From contig JAHHHH010000074.1 in the NCBI GenBank assembly GCA_019359415.1, forward strand, positions 1 through 38,702: DNA of 38,702 nt. Reading direction: 5' to 3'. Within the stretch, counting starts at the first letter, position 1. Each line of letters begins with the position of its first letter. The notes beneath the pieces were generated by a model. It was not told where the DNA came from. It worked only from the letters and a program-made list of their open reading frames with translations, and ran no database searches. A program made the translations under genes and the position numbers. This document shows positions 5,641-19,280 of the stretch, piece by piece. The stretch is from Iphinoe sp. HA4291-MV1 (GTDB lineage: Bacteria; Cyanobacteriota; Cyanobacteriia; Cyanobacteriales; Nostocaceae).

Positions 5641-6306
5641 ATGAAAATTTCTCAACGTCATACTTGGTCCCTAACAGTAGATGAAGCTATAAAAATTCAA
5701 GAAACATTAAGAGATGAGGTCATTACTGAAGATAAACTCAAAGAACCAGTGCAGTATGTGGCTGGGGTAGACATGGGTTTTGAAGCGGATGGTACTATTA
5801 GTCGTGCAGCTGTCGCAGTGCTCAGTTTTCCTGATTTGCAGATTCAAGAAACAAGCTTAGCACACCGTCCGACAACATTTCCTTATATTCCTGGATTTCT
5901 CTCATTTCGGGAAATACCCGCTGTATTAGATGCATTAGAAAAAATAAAAACAATACCAGATCTGATTTTGTGTGATGGACAGGGAATTGCTCATCCTCGA
6001 AGATTTGGTATAGCTTGCCACTTGGGTATAATTGTGGATATACCGACAATTGGTGTTGCTAAATCGTTGCTTGTTGGTAAACATGAAAATGTACCAGAAA
6101 CACGTGGTAGCGATCAACCACTGATATATAAAGGAGAAACAATTGGAGTCGTTTTACGAACGCGTACAGAAGTAAAGCCTCTCTATATCTCTAGCGGTCA
6201 TAGAATTAGTTTACCTACAGCAGTTGAGTATGTATTGCGTTGTACAACAAAATATCGGTTACCAGAAACAACACGCATTGCTGATAAATTAGCGTCCGCA
6301 AAATAA
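5641..6306 (+). CDS. nfi: endonuclease V
   Basis: A 221-residue deoxyinosine 3' endonuclease, which starts repair of deaminated adenine (inosine) in DNA. Catalytic acidic residues are visible at family positions: Asp44 in YVAGVDMGF, Glu91 in the YIPGFLSFRE signature, and Asp112 in CDGQGIAHPRRFG. The KSLL motif and the GVVLRTR segment follow. Length and start are standard. The downstream FHA gene starts 18 bp after the stop codon, so the two may be co-transcribed. That is unusual for nfi and may simply reflect insertion of the signalling island next to it. Confidence 0.95.
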   Translation: MKISQRHTWSLTVDEAIKIQETLRDEVITEDKLKEPVQYVAGVDMGFEADGTISRAAVAVLSFPDLQIQETSLAHRPTTFPYIPGFLSFREIPAVLDALEKIKTIPDLILCDGQGIAHPRRFGIACHLGIIVDIPTIGVAKSLLVGKHENVPETRGSDQPLIYKGETIGVVLRTRTEVKPLYISSGHRISLPTAVEYVLRCTTKYRLPETTRIADKLASAK

Positions 6307-6323: not shown

Positions 6324-6803
6324 ATGAGCGAACTCACTTTAGAATGGAAAGAAGCGCTTAAGAGCAGAACTGAAAAAATTCTCGACCAACAGCCCAGTAA
6401 AAACCCTGGAACAGTTAGACTTGGTCGTCATCCAGATTTGTGCGATATTCTTTTTCCTGAGGATGAGAAAATCTCTAGGTTACACGCTGAGATATTTTTT
6501 CATCGTGAGCAAAACAGCTTTTATTTACGGAAACTACCAGAAGGAAAACGTCCCCTCATCGTAGATGGGAAAATTATCACTCATGGTGAAGTACCTTTAA
6601 GACAAGGTAGCACGATTCTTTTAGGAGAAACAGAAATCAAAGTTGTAGCAGTTTCTGTAGATCTCGCATATGGTCTAATTTGTCCTAACACTAAATGTCG
6701 TAATCCAGATAAGCGTCGTATAGTAGATCCGAAATATCTACTTGAAAGTTGTCCTTGGTGTGGAACATCTTTAGCTGCAGCTCAGAGCTTTCATAGACTA
6801 TAG
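6324..6803 (+). CDS. FHA domain-zinc ribbon protein
   Basis: A 159-residue protein. Residues 25-110 form an FHA domain: GR at 34-35 and the S-x-x-H motif ISRLHAEI (Ser51, His54), which contact phosphothreonine in the family. The NGT element of the phosphate-binding loops is replaced by RPLIVDGK, so binding may be altered. The C-terminus has four cysteines (C120, C125, C143, C146) ending CPWCGTSLAAA, a zinc ribbon. It is closely related to the protein at 14080-14742, with the same opening layout and the same tail, but lacks that protein's Pro/His-rich linker. It probably reads a Thr-phosphorylated partner made by the neighbouring kinases (inference). Confidence 0.8.
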   Translation: MSELTLEWKEALKSRTEKILDQQPSKNPGTVRLGRHPDLCDILFPEDEKISRLHAEIFFHREQNSFYLRKLPEGKRPLIVDGKIITHGEVPLRQGSTILLGETEIKVVAVSVDLAYGLICPNTKCRNPDKRRIVDPKYLLESCPWCGTSLAAAQSFHRL

Positions 6804-7675: not shown

Positions 7676-7776
7676 GGTTTTGCAACCTATCCGGGTGCGC
7701 GCCACTCAAAGCGATGGTGCAAATTGTCGTTCAAGCGCGTTCGCCTGCACCGTTATCTGAACTGTATTGCTTGTGG

Positions 7777-8104
7777 ATGAGCATCAAACACACAAGCGCG
7801 AGCATCAAACACACAAGCGCGAGCATCAAACACACAAGCGCGAGCATCAAACACACAAGCGCGAGCATCAAACACACAAGCGCGAGTATCAAACACTCAA
7901 GCACGAGCATCAAACACACAAGCGCGAGCATCAAACACACAAGCGCGAGTATCAAACACACAAGCGCGAGTATCAAACACACAAGCACGAGCATCAAACA
8001 CACAAGCACGAGCATCAAACACACAAGCACGAGCATCAAACACACAAGCACGAGTATCAAACACTCAAGCACGAGTATCAAACACTCAAGCACGAGTATC
8101 AATT
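7777..8104. repeat. 21-bp minisatellite, 15 full copies
   Basis: Fifteen complete 21-bp units plus a partial one. Early units read catcaaacacacaagcgcgag and later ones tatcaaacactcaagcacgag, with substitutions spreading in blocks, as in unequal exchange. Because 21 is a multiple of 3, open frames appear on both strands (for example SIKHTSA repeats); these have no start context or homology and are not genes. A related 21-bp array lies at 38469-38702. Confidence 0.95.
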
Positions 8105-8122
8105 TGAATGGAGACAGGTTTT

Positions 8123-8476
8123 ATGAGAAAAATGATTCAGAATAAATTAGAGATGAAATTTGAATATCTCTACGAAATGCTGCAAAGCATTAAGCAGTAT
8201 CCTGGTATGTACTTAGGGAAAAGTTCAATCACCTGTTTGAAGTCATTTTTAGATGGCTACACAGCAGCAAGGCAAGACCTTGGTTTATCTTTAACTGAAC
8301 AAGAACGTCAATTTGAGAAGTTTCAAGAGTGGATTCAGGAAAGATTTGAGATGAAATCATCTCACGGATGGGATAGCATTATTCTTTTCTATTCTGCTGA
8401 TGAAAAAGATGCTCTCAATAACTTTTTTGAATTGTTTGAAAGATTTTGCAATGGTGAGAAGGCTGCAAGGGGTTAA
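8123..8476 (+). CDS. small conserved-looking hypothetical protein
   Basis: A 117-residue acidic, soluble protein. The motif QSIKQYPGMYLGKSSITCL, then SFLDGYTAARQDLG, the segment FEKFQEWIQERF and a closing NNFFELFERF look like a real protein family that I have seen in cyanobacterial genomes but cannot name. Some polymorphic-toxin immunity proteins have a similar size and Trp/Phe-rich composition, but that is speculation. Start choice: ATG at 8123 has GGAG about 8 bp upstream. ATGs at 8108 (inside the repeat edge) and 8153 are alternatives. The gene sits between the minisatellite and an Rpn C-terminal fragment. Confidence 0.55.
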   Translation: MRKMIQNKLEMKFEYLYEMLQSIKQYPGMYLGKSSITCLKSFLDGYTAARQDLGLSLTEQERQFEKFQEWIQERFEMKSSHGWDSIILFYSADEKDALNNFFELFERFCNGEKAARG

Positions 8477-8640: not shown

Positions 8641-10569
8641 CTACTGCTGAAGCTCAGCGATACGCTTGAGTGCATCTTGGTAATCATCGTTCTCTCCTCG
8701 TTTCTGATAAAACTCTGCCGCTTTTTGATAATCTGCGATCGCTGCTTTTTTATCTCCTAAGTCATCGCGGGCAAAACCACGGTTATAGTAGGCATCAGCA
8801 TAGTTGGGATTGAGGCGAATTGCCTGGTTGTAATCTTCTATCGCTGCTTTTTTATCTCCTATGGCAGAGCGGGCAATACCACGGTTCTTGTAGGCATCAG
8901 CATAGTTGGGATTGAGGCGAATTGCCTGGTTGTAATCTTCTATCGCTGCTTTTTGATCTCCTATGGCAGAGTGGGCAATACCACGGTTATAGTAGGCAAC
9001 AGCATTGTTGGGATTGAGGCGAATTGCCTGGTTGTAATCTTCTATCGCTGCTTTTTGATCTCCTATGGCAGAGTGGGCAATACCACGGCAAATGTAGGCA
9101 ACAGCAAAGTTGGGATTGAGGCGAATTGCCTGGTTGTAATCTTCTATCGCTGCTTTTTTATCCCCTGAGATGTAGCGGGAAATACCACGGTTATTGTAGG
9201 CATCAGCATAGTTGGGATTGAGGCGAATTGCCTGGTTGTAATCTTCTATCGCTGCTTTTTGATCTCCTATGGCAGAGCGGGCATTACCACGGTTATTGTA
9301 GGCATCAGCATAGTTGGGATTGAGGCGAATTGCCTGGTTGTAATCTTCTATCGCTGCTTTTTGATCTCCTATGGCAGAGCGGGCATTACCACGGTTATTG
9401 TAGGCATCAGCATAGTTGGGATTGAGGCGAATTGCCTGGTTGTAATCTTCTATCGCTGCTTTTTGATCTCCTATGGCAGAGTGGGCAATACCACGGCAAA
9501 TGTAGGCAACAGCATAGTTGGGATTGAGGCGAATTGCCTGGTTGAAATCTTCTATCGCTCCTTTGAAGTTGCCTTCGTCCGCCTTTTCTAATCCTTGAGC
9601 ATTGTAAAAATCATACGAAGGGCAAGGTTCATGTTGTACTGCTTCCCACCAACCTTGTACACTCTTTGGTCGATTTTCAGGCTTAATTTGCAATGCAGCC
9701 GTTATCATACCCTGCCAAGGTTCATCTAAATCTTGAGGAATCCAGTTGTCATTAAACAACGCCCGATTTAATGCTGATGGTGGTAACTTTCCAGTCAGCA
9801 TCTCATGCAGCATCATGCCCAATTCAAATAAATCACTTTCTGCTCCCACTTGTTCACCTGAAATTACCTCTGGAGCAGCATATCCTTCCGTGAAAGCGCG
9901 GGTACTTTGACGGCTAGAACTCCTAGTACTAAGGTTCTGTCGAGATGCACCAAAATCTACTAAAACAATCCGCCCTTCTGGTGTTACCATCACATTGTCT
10001 GGTTTAAGGTCAAGATGGTATATCCCTTGTTGATGAACTACTGTCAAAGCATCAACCAAAGCTGTCATCACTGTCTTGACTCGTTTTACTGATAATTTTT
10101 TCCCAGGTTGGGAGTCTAACTCATCTTTTAAGGTATTGCCTGCAAGTAGTTCCATAACCAAGTAGGCGGTACCTCGCTCTTTGAACAGATCTACAACCTG
10201 AACAACGTTAGGATGATTGAGTTTTGCTAAAGTGCGCCCTTCCCTTTCAAACCTTTGCAGTCCCCGCTGGTAAGATTCTTCTTGAGATGTTGGCACAGTC
10301 AAGCGCCCAGTCTCCCCCTCCCGGTGAGCTTGTTCTTGAGGATAAAATTCTTTGATGGCGACTACCTTTTCCAAAAATGTATGTGCAGCACGATAGGTGA
10401 TACCAAAACCTCCGCGTCCGAGAGCATAGTCAATCTGGTAGTCACCACCCCGTAACAAAGTTCCTGGAATTAGCACATCTCGCAACAACGTGGGTAAATG
10501 TACACTGCATCTTGGGCAGATTTCTGTTGATTGCGAAATGCCATCTAGCCGACAATGGAGACACCGCAT
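8641..10569 (-). CDS. serine/threonine protein kinase with TPR repeats
   Basis: A 642-residue kinase. The N-terminal zinc ribbon MRCLHC...CPRC (residues 1-22) is followed by a complete Hanks-type kinase domain (about 42-310): GRGGFGITY loop, VAIKEFYP lysine, YHLDLKPDNVM catalytic loop, DFGAS and a GYAAPE activation-segment end. The catalytic loop has HLD in place of HRD, so it is a non-RD type. Residues about 325-640 are nine TPR motifs; eight carry AIRLNPN at near-identical spacing (34 residues, 102 bp). There is no membrane segment, so it is cytosolic. TPRs usually recruit substrates. The DNA repeats are almost identical, suggesting recent copy-number change. It is encoded in the same direction as the TA pair, kinase 2 and PP2C. 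Confidence 0.92.
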   Translation of the reverse strand: MRCLHCRLDGISQSTEICPRCSVHLPTLLRDVLIPGTLLRGGDYQIDYALGRGGFGITYRAAHTFLEKVVAIKEFYPQEQAHREGETGRLTVPTSQEESYQRGLQRFEREGRTLAKLNHPNVVQVVDLFKERGTAYLVMELLAGNTLKDELDSQPGKKLSVKRVKTVMTALVDALTVVHQQGIYHLDLKPDNVMVTPEGRIVLVDFGASRQNLSTRSSSRQSTRAFTEGYAAPEVISGEQVGAESDLFELGMMLHEMLTGKLPPSALNRALFNDNWIPQDLDEPWQGMITAALQIKPENRPKSVQGWWEAVQHEPCPSYDFYNAQGLEKADEGNFKGAIEDFNQAIRLNPNYAVAYICRGIAHSAIGDQKAAIEDYNQAIRLNPNYADAYNNRGNARSAIGDQKAAIEDYNQAIRLNPNYADAYNNRGNARSAIGDQKAAIEDYNQAIRLNPNYADAYNNRGISRYISGDKKAAIEDYNQAIRLNPNFAVAYICRGIAHSAIGDQKAAIEDYNQAIRLNPNNAVAYYNRGIAHSAIGDQKAAIEDYNQAIRLNPNYADAYKNRGIARSAIGDKKAAIEDYNQAIRLNPNYADAYYNRGFARDDLGDKKAAIADYQKAAEFYQKRGENDDYQDALKRIAELQQ

Positions 10570-10668: not shown

Positions 10669-10986
10669 TCACGAAATTGCATCAAGCCCTTTTTTCTGGA
10701 CAATCATCAGCAGCTTCAACGCGGGACCACCAGGTTTTTTTTTCCCTCGCTCCCAATCCGAAATAAGGTTTTTTGAAACATTGAGGTAACGCGCAAAAAC
10801 TGGTTGCGATACTTGCTCGCGTTCCCGAATTTCCTTAATCTGCTCCGGCGTCAACGTTTCAACAGGAGAAAGACACGCCTCATCAAACTCACGCATAGTT
10901 TGCTTACTAATAGCCCCTACCTCATGTAATGCTTCCATCGTTTCATGAATGGCGGCAAACGCCTCACTGCGATATTTCTTGTTCAT
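10669..10986 (-). CDS. HigA/NadS-type antitoxin with XRE HTH
   Basis: A 105-residue DNA-binding antitoxin. The C-terminal half holds a Cro/cI helix-turn-helix (about residues 48-95: QIKEIREREQVSQPVFARYL, then VSKNLISDWERGKKKPGG). This is typical of antitoxins paired with RelE/HigB-like toxins in toxin-first operons. The gene overlaps the end of the toxin gene by 23 bp, so the pair is translationally coupled. Antitoxins of this type repress their own promoter (family knowledge). Confidence 0.85.
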   Translation of the reverse strand: MNKKYRSEAFAAIHETMEALHEVGAISKQTMREFDEACLSPVETLTPEQIKEIREREQVSQPVFARYLNVSKNLISDWERGKKKPGGPALKLLMIVQKKGLDAIS

Positions 10987-11353
10987 CCTGCTTAACCTCC
11001 GTCAAATGTCCTTTCTCGATAAGTTCCGCAATTTGCTCATCGGATAATTCCAGCATCTCTTTTGCCGCTTTCTTGAAGGCTTGCACTTCATCCTCCCGAA
11101 GGTTATCGCGTTCACTCTTGGCAAAGGCGTACATGAAGAAAGCCTTATCTCCGCAGCGAAATATAATGATACTTCGGTATCCTCCTGATTTTCCCTGTCC
11201 TTGTCGTGCTATCCGCTGTTTGATAACGCCACTGCCTAAATCGGCATCTACGAGTCCCTTTTCTGCTCTGCTAACTGCTGCGCAAAGAGCCTTATCCTCT
11301 AGCCGCTCTTTGCGGGCAAAGCGTTCAAACCAAGCGTTTTTAAAGATGCGCAT
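10964..11353 (-). CDS. RelE/HigB-like toxin
   Basis: A 129-residue basic protein. IFKNAWFERFARKERL at the start, the GSGVIKQRIARQGQGKSGGYRSI core and the IIFRCGDKAFFMYAFAKSERDN strand match the RelE-type toxin family often labelled phage-derived Gp49-like/HigB. Family members cleave mRNA at the ribosome. The downstream HTH gene overlaps by 23 bp, the standard toxin-antitoxin layout. It sits between the two kinase genes and is likely a mobile addition to the island. The length is complete with a normal ATG start. Confidence 0.85.
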   Translation of the reverse strand: MRIFKNAWFERFARKERLEDKALCAAVSRAEKGLVDADLGSGVIKQRIARQGQGKSGGYRSIIIFRCGDKAFFMYAFAKSERDNLREDEVQAFKKAAKEMLELSDEQIAELIEKGHLTEVKQDEQEISQ

Positions 11354-11472: not shown

Positions 11473-11575
11473 TTGCATATTTGCTTTATTTTTACCGAAG
11501 GTAAAAGAAAGAAAATATGTATGAGAAGTTGCCAATCTCTCCGGAATCTAACAAGCCTATGTTGTATCATATTAT

Positions 11576-11787
11576 CAGTAGACCGAAAAGATTTCTAGAA
11601 GGCTTACCATTGGGGCATTCTGGCGGATTGTATACAATCCGCCAGAATGCCCGTATCATCTGCGTTTTGAGCAATAGGGTTGTAGATGAGTTCTCCTGCT
11701 AAGGTAAGCGATCGCTCGACCCTGTGCCCAAAACATCGCCCCAAACCCTCATTCTTGCGTTGACTGACAAAAGTTTTCGGTCTACTG
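11576..11787. mobile_element. MITE-like element with 14-bp terminal inverted repeats
   Basis: The ends cagtagaccgaaaa (11576-11589) and its exact reverse complement (11774-11787) bound a 212-bp segment with no gene. Inside is a perfect 40-bp palindrome (11613-11652). The right end provides the last codons and the TAG stop of the kinase gene at 11782, so the element probably inserted into that gene. No target duplication is obvious. Confidence 0.65.
11613..11652. repeat. 40-bp perfect palindrome
   Basis: gggcattctggcggattgta is followed directly by its exact reverse complement, with no spacer. It lies within the MITE-like element 11576-11787. Such a structure can extrude as a cruciform or form a long RNA hairpin on either strand. 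Confidence 0.92.
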
Positions 11788-12540
11788 AAAATCACTAAAG
11801 TCAATTCCTTCAGTTGGTTGTGGAGTTTGGTTGAGATAATCTGCAAAATCTTCCAACTGTCGCCAGCGTCTGCGTACCCAAAAATGCTGTCCCGTTGCTA
11901 ATTGGTAAAGAATATGACCAAGGGCGTAAATATCTGCTCGTGCATCTGCAACTTTTGCCCCGTATACCAGTAACTCTGGTGCAATATAACGCAGAGTTCC
12001 CATCACTTCATTATCCTGCGTTAAGCGGTGTTCTTTGAATTTGGATATTCCAAAATCAATCAACTTGACTTGTCCATTTTCACCCAGCAAGATATTAGCA
12101 GGTTTCAGGTCACGGTGAATCACATTGCAACGGTGAGCATCCCCAACACCAACTAAAATTTGATAGAAAATATCTCGTTTTTGTTCACTACTAAGCACAT
12201 GAGGAGCTAAAAAATTATCTAAAGATTTGCCAGGAAAATACTCAAATAACAGCAAATAAGTATTAGGGTTCCATTGTCGCAGTCCAATCACAGGGATGAC
12301 GTATTCTGAAGGAATAGAGACTTCTGCTTCCAAGCGCACTCGTTCAGCCATCCGACTGTCAGGTTCGATGTTTTGAATTACCTTAAGAACATAAATTTTG
12401 TTTGTAGTCGTGTCAGCAACCTTCCACACTGAACCGAACCCACCGACTCCCAATAATTCTAATAGTTTAACCTCAGCTACGGGTGGAATTTCTGTTGGTA
12501 CCCGTCCACCGACCATAATTTCTAAAGTACGTTCTGGCAT
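11782..12540 (-). CDS. serine/threonine protein kinase, probably C-terminally truncated
   Basis: A 252-residue kinase starting MPERTLEIMVGGRVP. It has the glycine loop LLGVGGFGSVW, the lysine in YVLKVI, the catalytic loop VIHRDLKPANILL, DFGIS and the activation-segment end RYIAPEL. Sequence stops at IDFSDFQ, before the last alpha-helical subdomain (XI) with its conserved Arg, so about 45 residues seem missing. The final Gln and the stop codon come from the inverted repeat of the element at 11576-11787. The frame also extends 15 codons upstream through repeat-like sequence; ATG at 12540 is preferred. The PP2C gene is upstream on the same strand, making a kinase/phosphatase pair. Activity after truncation is uncertain. 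Confidence 0.85.
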   Translation of the reverse strand: MPERTLEIMVGGRVPTEIPPVAEVKLLELLGVGGFGSVWKVADTTTNKIYVLKVIQNIEPDSRMAERVRLEAEVSIPSEYVIPVIGLRQWNPNTYLLLFEYFPGKSLDNFLAPHVLSSEQKRDIFYQILVGVGDAHRCNVIHRDLKPANILLGENGQVKLIDFGISKFKEHRLTQDNEVMGTLRYIAPELLVYGAKVADARADIYALGHILYQLATGQHFWVRRRWRQLEDFADYLNQTPQPTEGIDFSDFQ

Positions 12541-12597
12541 TTGGTTTTTTATTTTAGATTTTGGATAGCTCAGATCTTGCACCATACTTTTCGTCCG

Positions 12598-12709
12598 CCA
12601 AGAAATTTATTTCTTGGCTCAAAGTCTAAGTCCGTTAAAACGGACTGGGTAAGTTTTTCAGTCCATTTTAACGGACTTGGGTTATTAGCCTTGAACTGAA
12701 GTTCAAGGC
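12598..12709. repeat. three consecutive hairpin repeats
   Basis: CCAAGAAA-ttta-TTTCTTGG (12598-12617) comes first. Next is a 20-bp inverted repeat with one mismatch (12628-12647 with 12659-12678, core tccgttaaaacgga). Last is GCCTTGAACT-ga-AGTTCAAGGC (12688-12709). They lie upstream of the kinase start on the same transcript side as PP2C. They look like a composite intergenic repeat rather than a terminator, as no T-tract follows. Confidence 0.85.
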
Positions 12710-12750
12710 GTACTCAACCGGAGGAGCAAGATCTGAGATAGGAGATAAAG

Positions 12751-12842
12751 CAATACTGCTCGGTTAAGAATAGTTGAGGTGCCAGAAACCCGGTTTCTTA
12801 AAGAAACCGGGTTTCTAATTTTTGCTTATCCGAGCAGTATTG
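12751..12842. mobile_element. 92-bp MITE with 13-bp TIRs and 10-bp target duplication
   Basis: The termini caatactgctcgg and ccgagcagtattg are exact inverted repeats. Inside is a second strong hairpin, AGAAACCCGGTTTCTT with its exact complement after one base. Both sides carry the direct repeat ggagataaag (12741-12750 and 12843-12852), the footprint of transposition. It encodes nothing and must have been moved by a transposase elsewhere. It sits between the PP2C and kinase genes, where its hairpin could affect a joint transcript. Confidence 0.85.
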
Positions 12843-12876
12843 GGAGATAAAGCTTGTAGCTATGATAGACGCGCAA

Positions 12877-13725
12877 CTATGAAACATTCTCTCTAATTGA
12901 CCATAAAATCAGTGTTTGATTATCAGTTTCTCCTGCTGTTTGTGCTGCTTGAATTAAATTTTCTGCCCTTGCTGTCAAACTCTGGCTAGAGTCTGCCAAA
13001 ATAGATTCAATTTCTTCTACAAGCAGAGAACCACTAATTCCATCAGTGCATAAAAGCAATAAATCTCCAGATGCTAATTGCACCTGGTAAACAGGAGGAA
13101 TCTGGGGTAATTGCGGGCAACCTACGTAAAATTCTAAACGGCTACGTCCTTCGTGGTGACGCGCCATTTCTTCTGTAATCATACCTGCCTTTAGCAATAC
13201 ATTTGCTACTGTATGATCTTGGGTAACTTTAGTTAATTTTCCACTGCTTGCTTGGTAATGAAATAAAGGACTATCTCCTAAGTTGATGGCAACAGCAATG
13301 TTATCCAAAATTGCTGTTACTAATACTGTTGAACCAGCAACTCCCCATTTATTTGCCTCTATCATTCTCCGCACATAGGCATTTGCCTGTTCTACAGCAT
13401 TGAGTAGAACTTGCGAAAGATTATTCGATGTTATTGGTGTAACTGAAGTTACATAGCGATTGAGAGATGACTCAATAGTGAGTTGCTCAAATAAGGATAA
13501 ACTCAGCTTACGTAGAGTCTGTTGGCTGACATCTTCGCCATAAGCATGACCACCCATTCCATCAGCAACTGCCATAATGATAATTGGCTTTTGCCCCAAA
13601 GCAGGAGTCAGAGTAAAGATTTGAAAACTATCTTCGTTTTGCTGGCGCTGGTTGGTTTGACTGTATACAACATAGCTTGGATAATTCGATTTAATATCAC
13701 CGTCAGAGGTTATTTGATTTGTCAT
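12877..13725 (-). CDS. PP2C-family protein serine/threonine phosphatase
   Basis: A 282-residue metal-dependent (Mg/Mn) phosphatase. Conserved motifs are QNEDSFQI (first metal Asp), VADGMGGHAYGE, AINLGDSPLFHY, LLLCTDGISG and a closing ETDNQTLILW, together giving all expected metal ligands. It has no membrane segment. The frame begins at 13743, but the ATG at 13725 is preceded by AGAGAA and better fits a ribosome-binding site. The kinase gene follows on the same strand after a 336-bp gap holding repeats and a MITE. The FHA-zinc ribbon gene diverges from its promoter side. It should reverse the phosphorylation made by the neighbouring kinases (inference). Confidence 0.92.
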   Translation of the reverse strand: MTNQITSDGDIKSNYPSYVVYSQTNQRQQNEDSFQIFTLTPALGQKPIIIMAVADGMGGHAYGEDVSQQTLRKLSLSLFEQLTIESSLNRYVTSVTPITSNNLSQVLLNAVEQANAYVRRMIEANKWGVAGSTVLVTAILDNIAVAINLGDSPLFHYQASSGKLTKVTQDHTVANVLLKAGMITEEMARHHEGRSRLEFYVGCPQLPQIPPVYQVQLASGDLLLLCTDGISGSLLVEEIESILADSSQSLTARAENLIQAAQTAGETDNQTLILWSIRENVS

Positions 13726-14079
13726 AAAATATTCTCTTTGCACTTATTCTCTTTTGTTACTTTAGTGAGTGGACAAAATTAAATTAATGGTGGGCATTGC
13801 CTAAAACAGTTTTTCTGCAAAGGTTACAAGCTTTGAGTAGGCAATGCCCATCCTACTGATATGTTTCATTTATTTATGTCCATCTACTTATTATCGAATG
13901 ACTGATTATCGAAACTGATGACTCAAGTGATTGTTGCATTGTATTGAGAGATTTTACATCTGCTTAATATAAGTTTCTTTTGAATTTTTTCTAAATAGTT
14001 GCTTCCTCTACCCGACTCATGTTAGGAATCTCACAGGAAGGAACTGAAATTATTTGTATAGAGTTACCGAGTTTAGAAC
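13726..14079. promoter_or_regulatory. divergent intergenic region between PP2C and FHA genes
   Basis: This 354-bp region must hold both outward promoters of the divergent PP2C-kinase and FHA-oxidoreductase transcripts. It contains a perfect 13-bp inverted repeat tgggcattgccta (13791-13803 with 13838-13850), a dispersed-repeat-like hairpin. I could not pick a convincing -35/-10 pair. Shared control of both arms is inferred from geometry only. Confidence 0.5.
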
Positions 14080-14742
14080 ATGAATGCACTAACTTTACAG
14101 TGGTATGATGCAGGTCAGCAAAAAACTCAGAAAATTCATGAACACGGTCCAAGTAAAAATCATGGCACTGTCCGTATCGGTCGCGATCCACTCCGGTGCG
14201 ATATTGTTCTAAGTCATGAGACTGTATCGGGTCTACACGTTGAAATCTATTTTCACACTCAACAGCAGCGCTTTTTTATTCGGAATTTGCGAGAGCCAAA
14301 TCCTCCTCTTGTAGATGGACAGCGACTCGTTCAAGGTGAGGTGGCTTTATATGAGGGCAGTATTATCTATTTGGGACAACAGGAACTCAAAGTGATTGCT
14401 GTTTCCATCCCTGCTGCAACCAGCAGTGTCCCAGTAACAGTTTTGTCACCACCACAGCCACAAGTGAGAAATCCTCACCGTGTAATACCAGTTGTACAGC
14501 CTCAGGTTTCTTTAGGAAATAACCCCCATCCACCGACACCTCCTGTACAACAACAACCAGTAGTCGTGCAAGGACATCATCATCACCATCCACCAACACC
14601 TCCTGTACAGCAAGGAATTTATGGCTTAGAGTGTCCCAAATGTCATAGAGTTTCTCCTCCTGAAAATCTGCAAATCTGCTGTCCTTGGTGTGGTACTTCT
14701 TTGGCTGCAGCTATCAGTGTTTTGGTAGCACCCAGTCATTGA
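14080..14742 (+). CDS. FHA domain-zinc ribbon protein with Pro/His-rich linker
   Basis: A 220-residue paralogue of the protein at 6324-6803. The FHA domain spans about residues 25-110, with GR 34-35 and S-x-x-H Ser50/His53 (VSGLHVEI). The usual NGT loop is NPPLVDGQ. Residues 115-180 form a flexible linker with repeated HPPTPPVQQ segments and five consecutive histidines (166-170). The tail is a zinc ribbon: C185-PK-C188 and C201-PW-C204, ending GTSLAAA as in the paralogue. The histidine run could bind metal. It is the first gene of the rightward arm; the FHA-oxidoreductase follows 274 bp on. A phospho-Thr adaptor role is inferred. Confidence 0.85.
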   Translation: MNALTLQWYDAGQQKTQKIHEHGPSKNHGTVRIGRDPLRCDIVLSHETVSGLHVEIYFHTQQQRFFIRNLREPNPPLVDGQRLVQGEVALYEGSIIYLGQQELKVIAVSIPAATSSVPVTVLSPPQPQVRNPHRVIPVVQPQVSLGNNPHPPTPPVQQQPVVVQGHHHHHPPTPPVQQGIYGLECPKCHRVSPPENLQICCPWCGTSLAAAISVLVAPSH

Positions 14743-15016
14743 TTAGAACCTATATCGCGATCGCACCAACTCAACAAACAGCAAGCAGCTTGCAAGAACA
14801 GGTGTCCAGATTTCAAGTAAACGCTTGATAGTGGTTATGTTGCAAAACTAATACAGCAGAATTCAGCAATTCCTGAGTCAGGAGTTAGATCGCGTAGCGT
14901 CTCCCTTTGGGAGAAGTAAAACAGGCTTTATATCTAGCTTTTAAACTTAGACACTGTACTTCATTTACTTGCAAACTGCTGTAACTATTAACTATATATT
15001 CATAACTCATTTACTT
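14743..15016. other. intergenic region with hairpin repeat
   Basis: The gap holds one HIP1-like site near 14758 and a small GC hairpin repeat around 14893-14916 (gcgtctcccttt-gggaga). Otherwise I see nothing. Confidence 0.5.
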
Positions 15017-17002
15017 ATGACCAATAACATACAAATTCAATTAAGATGGGATGAGCCAACAACGGGAGATAGGCGAGAACCACGTCTAAGTGCACCTATC
15101 GCCTTTGGTCGAGATTTGACCGTGCTACCTCCTGAAATAGAAGGACAGCGCGTTGCCCGAATGTTGCTGAATAGTCATCAAGTCTCTCGATATCACGCGC
15201 TGATTGACTGGGAACAAAACCAGTTGGTAGTGACTGACCAAAAAAGTACTAACGGTACTTTTGTCAACGGTAAGCCTCAAACACGTAGTGTTCTAACTAA
15301 CGGCGATACTTTACAAATAGGTCCGTACATCATTACGATTACCTTTGCCGCTGCTAGCACACCTCCACCTACCCCTAACATCAACTCCACCATTCACTTC
15401 AATCCCAACACCAATGTACCAGACCCCAACCTACCTCCTCCTCAAAGAGCAACACCTCTAGGAAGCAATTTTCCACCATCTGAGTTTCAGAAGGAAAAAG
15501 TTTCAGTACAAGCGCTGCACGCAACTGGTTTATCTGTGGGTGAAAGTGATTATCTTGCAATTGGAGCAGGATTGGGTAGCTATACGTGGGTAGATTTGCT
15601 GAGAGTATGTGGTGCTAATAGAGACAAGATAGTGACTTTGGGATTGGACGAAAAACCATATGCACGATACAAGCGCCTCTGCATGAACTCACAAATCCCT
15701 TTGCATGAACGACTACGTTCTAATTCTGACTCTTGTCCTGATAATATTTGGGGTTGGCCTAGTTACGCTTTGCGGGAGTCTTGGCGTGATTTTACGAAGG
15801 GAAACCTGAATCGGTCATTTAAGTATTTGTGGCAGGTGTTTAATGAACCAACCTTTGCTGAAACTTATACCCCTCGTTCGGGAAATGTGTTTGATTCTAT
15901 AGATAGAGAGGTAAAACGTATAGGCTGGGATAGGATTTATCGTTACGGACGAGTACAGACAATTCGTAAGACTGATGATGACAGATATTGTGTAGCCTAC
16001 TCCCGTGGACAAGGAAATCATGCCTTCCATGTTGCTCGTTATTTACACTTAGCAATTGGTTATCCCGCAATTCAGTTTCTCCCAGATTTGCAAGCTTACA
16101 GGGAGAAGTATCCAAACCCAGACCCTAAGTCTGGGGTCAATAAGTCTGTAGTCAATGCCTACGAAGACCACAATCATGTTTATGAGCAACTAGAGCGACA
16201 AGGTGGTAAAGTACTGATTCGGGGACGGGGGATTGTTGCTTCCCGCATTTTGCAGCGTATCTATGAAGCAAGAAAACGGAATCGGAATATTACAGTATTG
16301 CATTTGATGCGATCGCCTAAACCCATGGGCAACAAGTTTGAAAAAGCACAGCGCCTAGTGAAGAATCATTACGAATTCCAACCCTTCAACTGGCCCAAAG
16401 CTTGTTGGGGTGGGGAACTGCGAGTGATAATGGAAAAAGCTAGCCCTGATGAACGTAAGCGCTTGCTCACGGACTGGGGTGGTACCACCACTGCTGACCG
16501 CCGCGATTGGCAGCGTATTATTGAGGAGGGGTTAAGAGAAGGTTGGTATAAAATTGAGTTTGGTGAAGTGCAAAAGGTGGAACGCAATGCCCAAAACCGA
16601 CCTATTACATATATCCAAGAAAAAGATTTTGGGCAAGTGACCCTAGATGCTGATTTTATTATTGATGCCACCGGACTTGATGCCAAGGTACAAACCACTC
16701 CACTACTGGACGACTTAGTGAAACACTACAACCTGCCATTGAATTATCTGGAGCGCTTACCTGTTGCAAATAATTTTGAATTGGTTGAGATGCGTAATGG
16801 CAAAGGTCAGATGTACGCAGCTGGAGCAATTACTCTAGGTGGTCCCCATGCAGCTGTTGATAGCTTCCTCGGTTTGCAATACGCTGCTCTGTATGCAGTG
16901 GATGGTCTTGCTGCTGCTCGTGCGCCCGGAGTACATCGCTTAAATTTTATGAGTTCGTTTGGGCAATGGTTGAAGTGGGTGTTCAATCAGTCACCTTCAT
17001 AG
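15017..17002 (+). CDS. FHA domain fused to FAD/NAD(P)-binding oxidoreductase
   Basis: A 661-residue two-part protein. Residues 1-112 are a complete FHA domain (FGRD 30-33, VSRYHALI with Ser57/His60, STNGTFVNG 77-85), with all phospho-Thr contacts present. Residues 113-160 are a Pro-rich linker. The remainder is a flavoprotein-like oxidoreductase: dinucleotide loop AIGAGLGS (about 181-188), a second Rossmann-like loop KVLIRGRGIVAS (about 380), DFIIDATGLDA (about 565) and a C-terminal FAD-contact region QMYAAGAITLGGPHAAVDSF. It resembles the lysine/ornithine monooxygenase and pyridine-nucleotide oxidoreductase superfamily, but the substrate is unknown. The open frame extends 16 codons upstream; the ATG at 15017 starts the conserved FHA strand. 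The CPBP gene follows after 7 bp. Confidence 0.88.
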   Translation: MTNNIQIQLRWDEPTTGDRREPRLSAPIAFGRDLTVLPPEIEGQRVARMLLNSHQVSRYHALIDWEQNQLVVTDQKSTNGTFVNGKPQTRSVLTNGDTLQIGPYIITITFAAASTPPPTPNINSTIHFNPNTNVPDPNLPPPQRATPLGSNFPPSEFQKEKVSVQALHATGLSVGESDYLAIGAGLGSYTWVDLLRVCGANRDKIVTLGLDEKPYARYKRLCMNSQIPLHERLRSNSDSCPDNIWGWPSYALRESWRDFTKGNLNRSFKYLWQVFNEPTFAETYTPRSGNVFDSIDREVKRIGWDRIYRYGRVQTIRKTDDDRYCVAYSRGQGNHAFHVARYLHLAIGYPAIQFLPDLQAYREKYPNPDPKSGVNKSVVNAYEDHNHVYEQLERQGGKVLIRGRGIVASRILQRIYEARKRNRNITVLHLMRSPKPMGNKFEKAQRLVKNHYEFQPFNWPKACWGGELRVIMEKASPDERKRLLTDWGGTTTADRRDWQRIIEEGLREGWYKIEFGEVQKVERNAQNRPITYIQEKDFGQVTLDADFIIDATGLDAKVQTTPLLDDLVKHYNLPLNYLERLPVANNFELVEMRNGKGQMYAAGAITLGGPHAAVDSFLGLQYAALYAVDGLAAARAPGVHRLNFMSSFGQWLKWVFNQSPS

Positions 17003-17009
17003 ATAATTT

Positions 17010-17897
17010 ATGACTCCTGAAAATATCAATAATCCATTTCTCCATCTCAAAGTTCGCTCTTTGCTGCTGCGGCTTCTACTGATATCCTTCGTTCTTGGCT
17101 TAGGATTGGGGCTAATCCAAGCGACAAGAGAGTTGAATTTCAACCCTCAAGTCTTGAATCTCATCCTCTACATTTTTGTGTTCGGGTTACTTTGCCTTTG
17201 GACACTGGCAGACTTTAAGCGCTTAGGAGTTCACCTTAACTACATCGTTGGTCAGCTACCAAATAATCATAGGTGGTTGCCGATGGTAGGCTTAGTCATT
17301 CTGATGATACTATTTTCCATTGGTTCCTACCTAGTGTTGTTTTATATACTGTCATTAGTGGCTCCATCTTTTGTAGATGCAATCCTAAACGACGTTGCCA
17401 AAAGCCCAACACCTCAAAGGACTGCACCATTGTTGTTCAACCTGCTGGGAGCGATCGTGTTAGTGGTTGTTGCCCCAATTACTGAAGAATTCCTCTTTAG
17501 AGGGATTATTTTGCAGCGCTGGGCAAGTAAGTGGGGTATTCGAGCAGGATTGTTGGGTTCATCGCTATTATTCGGCATCGGGCACGCGAATATTGTGGGA
17601 TTGTCTATGGTAGGAGTGATTTTGGGGGTGTTATACATCAGGACGCGATCGCTCATCGTACCCATTGCCTGCCATGCGATGAATAATTCTTTTGTAGTGG
17701 TCATGATGCTGTTACCCAGTGCGTCGAAGACTACCTCAGCCGTGCACAGATTAGAACAATTACGTTATAGCTTGTGGTTCGGTATCCTGTTTATAGTTCT
17801 CTCACTACCTCTGTTAGTAAGCTTTCTCTCCCAAAACTGGCCACGCAAAGATGCAGTCATCCCCTACTTCATCAACTCTTTTCAAAAAGAGTCATGA
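17010..17897 (+). CDS. CPBP (CAAX/Abi) family intramembrane metalloprotease
   Basis: A 295-residue membrane protein with about seven hydrophobic segments. The three CPBP motifs are intact: EEFLFRG (Glu159, Glu160, Arg164), FGIGHAN (His192) and HAMNNS (His222, Asn226). Family members are glutamate-type intramembrane proteases, as in CAAX processing and bacteriocin self-immunity. It starts 7 bp after the FHA-oxidoreductase stop codon, so the two are almost certainly co-transcribed. A functional link, such as membrane cleavage of a partner, is inferred. The substrate is unknown. Confidence 0.88.
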   Translation: MTPENINNPFLHLKVRSLLLRLLLISFVLGLGLGLIQATRELNFNPQVLNLILYIFVFGLLCLWTLADFKRLGVHLNYIVGQLPNNHRWLPMVGLVILMILFSIGSYLVLFYILSLVAPSFVDAILNDVAKSPTPQRTAPLLFNLLGAIVLVVVAPITEEFLFRGIILQRWASKWGIRAGLLGSSLLFGIGHANIVGLSMVGVILGVLYIRTRSLIVPIACHAMNNSFVVVMMLLPSASKTTSAVHRLEQLRYSLWFGILFIVLSLPLLVSFLSQNWPRKDAVIPYFINSFQKES

Positions 17898-17974: not shown

Positions 17975-18700
17975 ATGCAGACATTTGAAGCAAATTCCTT
18001 AATGCATCTGTCAGTTGTACCAAAACGTTGCCAGCCTCTAAAGATTGTCGCGCTAGGAGATAGTTTAGTATATGGATTTGGTGATCCAGAAGGAGGCGGC
18101 TGGGTCGAGCGACTACGACGGTGTTGGATGTTACCAGATAGCCCAGGTCATGTGATTTATAATTTGGGAGTGCGGGGCGATCGCATTCAGCAAGTAGCGC
18201 AAAGGCTAGAAGTTGAATTTCGCCACCGGGGTGAACTGCGAAATCAGGTTCCCGACTTGATTGTTCTTTCAGTAGGAGTCAATGATTCCGCACGGTTAAG
18301 TCGTCTCAATGGACGAAACTATACAGATTTTGCCATTTTTGAATCACAAATTGCATCCTTACTTGACCGGGCACAGTTGCTTTGCCCGGTTTTATTTGTA
18401 GGCATGGTACCAGTTGACGAAGCCAAGATGCCATTTATGGATTGCTTGTACTACAATCATACCGACCAATACCGCTACAAAGAAGCTATGAGAGTCGCTT
18501 GCACCGCAAGGAGAATTCCCTATCTCGACATTTTCCAGAAATGGATGGATAGCACTGAAGCGTGGAGACTCAAACGCTTGAGCAAAGATGGTCTTCATCC
18601 CAATACGTTAGGGTATCAAACTCTGTTGGAGGATGTTATGAATTGGGAAGCGTTTGCTGCCTACAATAGTAGTTCCTCCTACCAACTCACTTCGTCATAG
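17975..18700 (+). CDS. SGNH/GDSL hydrolase
   Basis: A 241-residue esterase/lipase-like SGNH hydrolase. Block I VALGDSLVYG has nucleophile Ser30, block III is SVGVND (Asn103), and block V DGLHPN has Asp205 and His208, completing the triad. Gly66 in YNLGVRGD serves block II. No signal peptide is visible, so it is probably cytosolic. It starts at the first ATG (17975); the ATG nine codons downstream is an alternative, since family similarity starts only near residue 20. It is in the same direction as the FHA-CPBP genes, 77 bp downstream. The substrate is unknown. Confidence 0.88.
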   Translation: MQTFEANSLMHLSVVPKRCQPLKIVALGDSLVYGFGDPEGGGWVERLRRCWMLPDSPGHVIYNLGVRGDRIQQVAQRLEVEFRHRGELRNQVPDLIVLSVGVNDSARLSRLNGRNYTDFAIFESQIASLLDRAQLLCPVLFVGMVPVDEAKMPFMDCLYYNHTDQYRYKEAMRVACTARRIPYLDIFQKWMDSTEAWRLKRLSKDGLHPNTLGYQTLLEDVMNWEAFAAYNSSSSYQLTSS

Positions 18701-18854: not shown

Positions 18855-19280
18855 ATGACTCCTACTTTATTTGGTCGTTGGCAAACTCGACTCTTACTAT
18901 TTTTTACTGTAGGTGTATTGGTATCTATACCTTTTGCAATTGGTTTGGTAGGCTCCCCTCCTAACACCGTTTATTTTTGGATAGTTGGCTATGTTGCCAT
19001 CTTTGGCTTAGTCTGGGATGTGGTTTATATTCAAATCCAAAAATATCGCTGGGATAGAGATTGGCCTGCAGCTTATCAACTGTTTGCTGGTCTTTGGGAG
19101 ATGGTATTTGTCTGGTGTGGGGTAAAATTTATCGGTTTACCAGCGGTAGCAAAAGAACTGCCAATTTTCTGGTTTTTGGTGCATTACAGTGTCGTGTGGC
19201 TGGCAGTTTTTATTGTTTCGCAAAGTTTGATGAGGATTCTATTTGTCCGCTGGCGCTTCCGGGGCGGACAGTGGTTGTAG
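18855..19280 (+). CDS. small four-TM membrane protein
   Basis: A 141-residue integral membrane protein starting MTPTLFGRWQTRLLL, with hydrophobic stretches near residues 12-32, 40-58, 75-92 and 100-122 and a basic C-terminus. The true start is the ATG at 18855; an upstream TTG lies within the dispersed repeat. I recognise no catalytic motif. Conserved-looking Trp and Tyr residues (WDVVYIQIQKYRWDRDWP between helices 2 and 3) suggest a real cyanobacterial family of unknown role. It is the last rightward gene of the island. Confidence 0.75.
   Translation: MTPTLFGRWQTRLLLFFTVGVLVSIPFAIGLVGSPPNTVYFWIVGYVAIFGLVWDVVYIQIQKYRWDRDWPAAYQLFAGLWEMVFVWCGVKFIGLPAVAKELPIFWFLVHYSVVWLAVFIVSQSLMRILFVRWRFRGGQWL

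Follow-up and report, generated by a model that had tools for sequence, protein, structure and literature searches.

A candidate FHA-fused flavoprotein co-inherited with a small membrane protein in cyanobacteria, and its separation from a neighbouring kinase–phosphatase island

Bacterial genes for phosphothreonine signalling can lie side by side, raising the question of which neighbours belong to one system. Such a case is found in Iphinoe sp. HA4291-MV1, where the window (the whole 38,702-nucleotide stretch of contig JAHHHH010000074.1 analysed here) carries five genes diverging from one intergenic region. A sequence-only reading had joined these five into a single module, and open reading frames and domain searches confirmed them at the positions and on the strands it gave. 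The divergent PP2C and FHA starts are indeed 354 bp apart, and the last two genes are separated by 7 bp. On the minus strand are a PP2C phosphatase (12877–13725, counted from the ATG; PF13672, 1.1e-8) and a C-terminally truncated Ser/Thr kinase (11782–12585; PF00069, 3e-43). On the plus strand, FHAZ (14080–14742; 220 aa) joins an FHA domain (PF00498, 3.6e-13) through a proline-rich linker to a Cys4 zinc-ribbon-like C-terminus; FHAOX (15017–17002; 661 aa) combines an FHA domain (PF00498, 6.3e-15) with a predicted two-dinucleotide-domain flavoprotein; and a CPBP/Rce1-like intramembrane protease follows (17010–17897; PF02517, 3.7e-20). The FHA matches of FHAZ and FHAOX score 50.2 and 55.8 bits against a Pfam cut-off of 20.7. 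The CPBP match scores 72.4 bits against 22.4, and the EEFLFR of this frame fits EExxxR, which we take to be the motif of CPBP/Rce1 intramembrane proteases.

Further plus-strand genes flank this set. Downstream lie a GDSL/SGNH hydrolase (17975–18700; PF13472, 4.1e-23) and U147 (18855–19280), a 141-aa membrane protein (counted from MTPTLFGRWQTR) for which four helices are predicted, so that CPBP stands between FHAOX and U147. Upstream are endonuclease V (5641–6306; PF04493, 4.1e-80), the usual upstream neighbour of FHAZ, and, 17 bp behind it, a second, diverged FHA-zinc ribbon gene lacking the proline linker (6324–6803). Positions 11735–11819 of region L160 were noted together with this second gene.

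The surroundings of FHAOX were compared in 81 regions (the best 80 of 255 loci found, plus the window; L006 and L007, identical in sequence, are both counted) and in 40 divergent regions. The pairing of FHAZ with FHAOX proved to be conserved, with FHAZ upstream on the same strand and within 4.5 kb in 80/81 and 31/40 regions. Endonuclease V was found within the same distance, on the same strand upstream of FHAZ, in 75/81 and 14/40 regions despite its differing phyletic pattern. The GDSL hydrolase was present in 39/81 and 5/40 regions. CPBP, assigned by the sequence-only reading to the module, is a real neighbour but a lineage-restricted one (17/81 and 1/40). U147 was located within 4.5 kb in 38/81 and 32/40 regions (downstream on the same strand in 36/81 and 29/40) and was absent from this range in 43/81 (25 of the 60 whose flanks are complete) and 8/40. 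Among the named loci, regions that hold FHAZ, FHAOX and U147 together include those of Fischerella thermalis PCC 7521, Calothrix brevissima NIES-22 and Sphaerospermopsis kisseleviana NIES-73. Where 4.5 kb of sequence was available on both sides (60/81 and 37/40 regions), the counts were 60 and 29 for FHAZ, 55 and 13 for endonuclease V, 35 and 29 for U147, and 14 and 1 for CPBP.

U147, which lies beyond the five genes and was overlooked in the earlier grouping, turned out to be the tightest co-inherited partner of FHAOX. Full-length FHAOX occurs in 61 of 386 cyanobacterial genomes (69 matched, minus 8 dropped as FHA-only) and U147 likewise in 61, with 60 in common (Jaccard 0.968); three FHAOX and up to ten U147 first-look candidates were scored per genome, and extra copies may be missed. 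Endonuclease V, used as a control, is present in 88/386 genomes, sharing 47 with the 61 of FHAOX (Jaccard 0.461) and occurring in 41 that lack FHAOX. This overlap exceeds chance (Fisher p 1e-23, with no correction for relatedness). Although a conserved neighbour, endonuclease V was rejected as a functional partner, since it overlaps far less with FHAOX in phyletic pattern. FHAZ was found in 54/386 genomes, all of them among the 61 that encode FHAOX; seven FHAOX genomes lack it, and thus FHAZ is not essential. From this count G085, G241 and G087 were set aside, as their matches are confined to the FHA portion of larger frames, while G056 was kept, since its match, though spanning only 1–111, lies in a 169-aa frame directly before FHAOX (L128).

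Two genomes depart from the joint pattern of FHAOX and U147. G278 encodes FHAOX, with no U147 match even at E<=10. In G385 no FHAOX was matched at E<=1e-15, and the U147 copy next to endonuclease V (C1:3657581-3658877) is interrupted by stops, an apparent case of joint loss in progress. Among 31 relatives, FHAOX and U147 are both present in the same 18 and both missing from the same 13, five of the latter being among the eight members of the window's own genus, although relatedness makes such counts non-independent. The joint absences span seven of the family's genera (g1, g5, g6, g16, g22, g24 and g147), and in g24 a relic of U147 persists despite the absence of FHAOX. Copy number is matched as well: two copies of FHAOX were seen in three genomes (G174, G284 and G255, the second copy of the last being truncated), each of which also holds two U147 genes. 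Moreover, both genes are retained where they are unlinked, as in G068 (1.56 Mb apart), G125, G167 and G376.

Trees of the two proteins, built from 74 matched regions, are correlated (Mantel r 0.805; 0/999 permutations) and hold the same 8-member and 14-member splits, with support of 1.0/0.98 and 1.0/0.993. A first clade test failed in that L124 did not join the other type-2 copies, and these splits were chosen after seeing that result. Shared ancestry by itself can be enough to make such trees correlate highly, and can account for much of the agreement in phyletic pattern. A possible, if less probable, explanation is that the genes of one operon are acquired and lost together, FHAOX and U147 serving one pathway without touching and the FHA domain having nothing to do with U147. 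Indeed, the proximity of U147 to FHAOX in 32 of the 40 divergent regions means that block loss accounts for part of the pattern. It fits less well with the co-presence of unlinked genes, the matched copy number and the decay of the U147 left behind in G385. Together, these observations favour a dependence between FHAOX and U147, short of proving contact between them.

In L119, L122 and L147, the final base matched to FHAOX is also the first of U147. In G255, FHAOX without its last part and U147 share a single 735-aa frame (L134 8682-10805, G255:C1), which looks like decay; given this truncation of FHAOX, and since the genome has another, full-length FHAOX and another U147 elsewhere, the frame was not counted toward contact.

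No convincing family was found for U147 in Pfam or NCBIfam, the weak matches being led by UbiA (0.0062, in 2/23 rows), and a fold search with its model (pLDDT 64.7) returned no match, the best E being 4.9. At its N-terminus, Thr2 is invariant (23/23 rows) and Thr4 is kept in 21/23, with Ile and Ser in the others. Charge pattern and membrane topology are linked by the positive-inside rule. The distribution of charges in U147 suggests that both termini are cytoplasmic, in which case the N-terminal MTPTL could be within reach of kinases.

What kind of protein FHAOX is was addressed through its motifs and a structural model. Alignments drew on 31 (A1) and 77 (A2) of the 81 sequences, the latter leaving out L047, missed by the selection motif, as well as L007, L025 and L029. 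Over 31/31 FHAOX rows, the FHA residues G31, R32, S57, H60 and N79 are invariant; the conserved GR, SxxH and N residues presumably form the phosphothreonine pocket. Searches of Pfam, NCBIfam and PDB sequences with the catalytic half (~500 residues) found nothing significant, the best sub-threshold matches being DUF6718 (0.064), LodB (0.11) and, in PDB sequences, barstar (E 0.85). This half does carry the dinucleotide motifs GxGxG, GxGxxxS and DATGL, and its predicted fold resembles, over most of its length, that of SidA, YpdA and FMO, with FAD and NADPH Rossmann domains. The model is of middling confidence (pLDDT 68.6) and poor in parts, and the Foldseek superposition is loose (rmsd ~11). The earlier designation as an oxidoreductase stands as a flavoprotein assignment by motifs and predicted fold, whereas a family match in those three databases is absent. 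We infer that FHAOX is an enzyme using NAD(P)H and FAD, with a fold like that of SidA, YpdA and FMO; this fold family is broad and does not point to a substrate.

It is also conceivable, though unlikely, that FHAOX is a pseudo-enzyme whose flavoprotein fold serves as a structural or sensory scaffold, leaving the FHA domain as the working part. This would agree with the lack of an enzyme family match, with the Ser that replaces the third Gly of many FAD motifs, and with the spacing of the conserved cysteines (222, 240 in 30/31 rows, 325 and 463), which include no close pair and thus no redox CxxC or CxxxxC of the thioredoxin reductase type. Against it stand the nucleotide motifs and many further residues that are invariant across 31 sequences; besides, Ser variants of the FAD motif occur in active monooxygenases.

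The kinase and phosphatase of the window appear to have a different history. The Pkinase match ends at 199/263 in the window kinase, and the end of the kinase domain and an FHA domain are missing by comparison with longer homologues from L002 (421 aa) and G402 (403 aa); the latter has a Pfam FHA domain, and the former, by eye, a similar C-terminal extension. The match to the L002 kinase stops at 11788, at a ~220-bp element (11571–11792) with 24-nt inverted ends (88% complementary) that abuts the kinase break. Of the 354-bp intergenic region, 138 bp (13763–13900) are missing from L002; they hold a perfect 13-bp inverted repeat, the small element at 13791–13850. Together with 12751–12842, three elements with inverted ends are thus present in or beside the island.

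Further genes of the island extend to the left. A kinase gene with TPR repeats and a Cys-rich N-terminus (8641–10569, minus strand) shows 102-bp-period repeats of its TPR part at 8729–9564, and its L002 homologue has a charged stretch followed by a shorter TPR part. No vWA gene was detected among the island ORFs scanned in the window; HTH and RelE-like genes of toxin-antitoxin type (10669–10986 and 10964–11353, minus strand) are found where L002 has its vWA region, itself spread over two frames. An ORF of a repeated heptad (IKHTSAS) at 7714–8145, open in three frames, is probably a DNA repeat rather than a gene.

A relative of the same genus offers a view of the locus in another state. In G392, endonuclease V, FHAZ, FHAOX, CPBP, GDSL and U147 stand together, the ~7-kb stretch with kinase and PP2C is absent, and the endonuclease V and FHAZ matches are about 170 bp apart, versus about 7.6 kb in the window; the inserted stretch thus explains why endonuclease V lies 8.7 kb from FHAOX here. 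Behind endonuclease V, only window 6709–6793, the 3' end of the second FHA-zinc ribbon gene, was matched in G392. At thresholds of E<=1e-40 for PP2C and E<=1e-60 for the kinase, both genes were matched in 3/31 relatives, namely the window's genome, G391 (the source of L002) and G402, and were adjacent in each. On a contig other than that of FHAOX, G402 carries PP2C, a kinase-FHA protein (403 aa), a zinc ribbon-vWA protein (239 aa) and a GUN4-kinase; a kinase related to the window's kinase-TPR protein is encoded beside the vWA gene. Kinase and PP2C seem to have arrived recently between endonuclease V and FHAZ, as an insertion that is now partly broken. Since the kinase is truncated, a vWA gene was not found and G392 lacks the stretch, the phospho-writer proposed earlier is best read as the remnant of an independent island. 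An anti-phage role was considered and rejected, the PADLOC matches falling on the generic kinase domain, with none for PP2C, FHAZ or CPBP; the sole match of the FHAOX catalytic half, to ThsA, was weak (E 0.057).

Region counts agree with this picture. PP2C lies within 4.5 kb of FHAOX in 2/81 and 0/40 regions, the two cases being the window and L002, and any kinase in 5/81 and 8/40, on varying sides and strands; with full flanks, the corresponding numbers are 2 and 0 for PP2C and 5 and 7 for kinases. At 4.5–9 kb, kinases were seen in 2/81 and 6/40 regions (8/121 in all, L115 having kinases at both distances) and PP2C in 0/81 and 2/40, where only 7 and 6 of the 40 divergent regions are long enough to cover 9 kb on the left and on the right side, respectively. 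The sequence-only reading held that the grouping would be coincidental if homologues of FHAOX rarely neighboured these genes; they do so rarely (PP2C in 2/121 and a kinase in 13/121 regions), and for PP2C and kinase we regard it as such. As the core of a module, the set of kinase, PP2C and CPBP was rejected on the region counts. FHA domains, kinases and PP2C phosphatases are biochemically compatible, these genes do stand together in the window and L002, and CPBP is nearby in 17/81 regions, but a module in which PP2C and kinase set a phosphorylation state for FHAZ and FHAOX to read, and CPBP provides the membrane output, is largely refuted by the counts and very improbable given kinases with no fixed place, the truncated window kinase, the separate contigs in G402 and the lack of a match to PP2C or kinase in 28/31 relatives, 15 of which carry FHAOX.

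The explanation that we favour, at roughly even odds, is a module of FHAZ, FHAOX and U147, separate from the kinase/PP2C island, in which an FHA-steered flavoenzyme works with U147. FHAOX would use FAD and NAD(P)H and, together with U147, act on a membrane-associated substrate. FHAZ, whose four C-terminal Cys (CPKC...CPWC) match the Pfam double zinc ribbon at no better than E 0.034, would assist as a second FHA reader, probably as an adaptor or regulator. The FHA domains may position or switch the enzyme in response to threonine phosphorylation by kinases encoded elsewhere. Co-inheritance, matched copy number, the deep tree splits, FHAZ–FHAOX adjacency, the FHA and dinucleotide motifs and the match of the predicted fold are observations; the cofactors, membrane topology, FHAOX–U147 contact, phospho-control and substrate of this module are inferred. 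A more specific and speculative form, to which we assign only a small chance, is a phosphothreonine-gated membrane redox system in which the FHA domain of FHAOX docks on the phosphorylated, cytoplasmic N-terminus of U147 (M-T-P-T-L). Docking would bring an active site like that of SidA or YpdA to a substrate embedded in the membrane, and the FHA-zinc ribbon protein might compete for, or bridge, the same phospho-mark.

Parallels to known systems are partial. A TerY-P triad, as described in PMC11090510, consists of VWA, PP2C and kinase-zinc ribbon proteins. The G402 relatives of the PP2C–kinase pair similarly stand with a vWA protein bearing an N-terminal zinc ribbon; however, the kinase carries the zinc ribbon in the described triad, whereas in G402 FHA is on the kinase and the zinc ribbon on the vWA protein. 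The window differs further, having PP2C but a truncated kinase without a zinc ribbon and no vWA gene found. This TerY-P-like island is no part of the FHAZ–FHAOX–U147 module.

Enzymes under FHA control are already known, as are flavoproteins that have membrane partners. By its predicted fold and its three motifs, FHAOX resembles SidA/PvdA, YpdA, FMO and thioredoxin reductase, but it differs from SidA/PvdA and the wider flavoproteins in its fused FHA domain, its lack of a redox CxxC and its tight pairing with a membrane protein, and its catalytic half has no Pfam match to the families of these proteins. PF13434, which we take to be the family of N-hydroxylating monooxygenases, was not among the Pfam matches at E<=10 for its catalytic half. 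OdhI and GarA likewise join an FHA domain to the control of a metabolic enzyme, and the NCBIfam OdhI match is weak and below cut-off; yet they act in trans, on oxoglutarate dehydrogenase, whereas FHAOX has its FHA domain fused to what is presumed to be the enzyme itself, and involves a membrane partner. No description of the FHAZ–FHAOX–U147 module was found in the literature searched (open-licence papers).

To the best of our knowledge, cyanobacteria encode many Ser/Thr kinases and few known readers. The comparison presented here tells a tightly co-inherited signalling-redox unit apart from a chance neighbourhood, and it provides a lead to function, through a membrane partner and phospho-reading, for U147 and the putative flavoprotein domain of FHAOX, neither of which could be given a name here from Pfam or NCBIfam.
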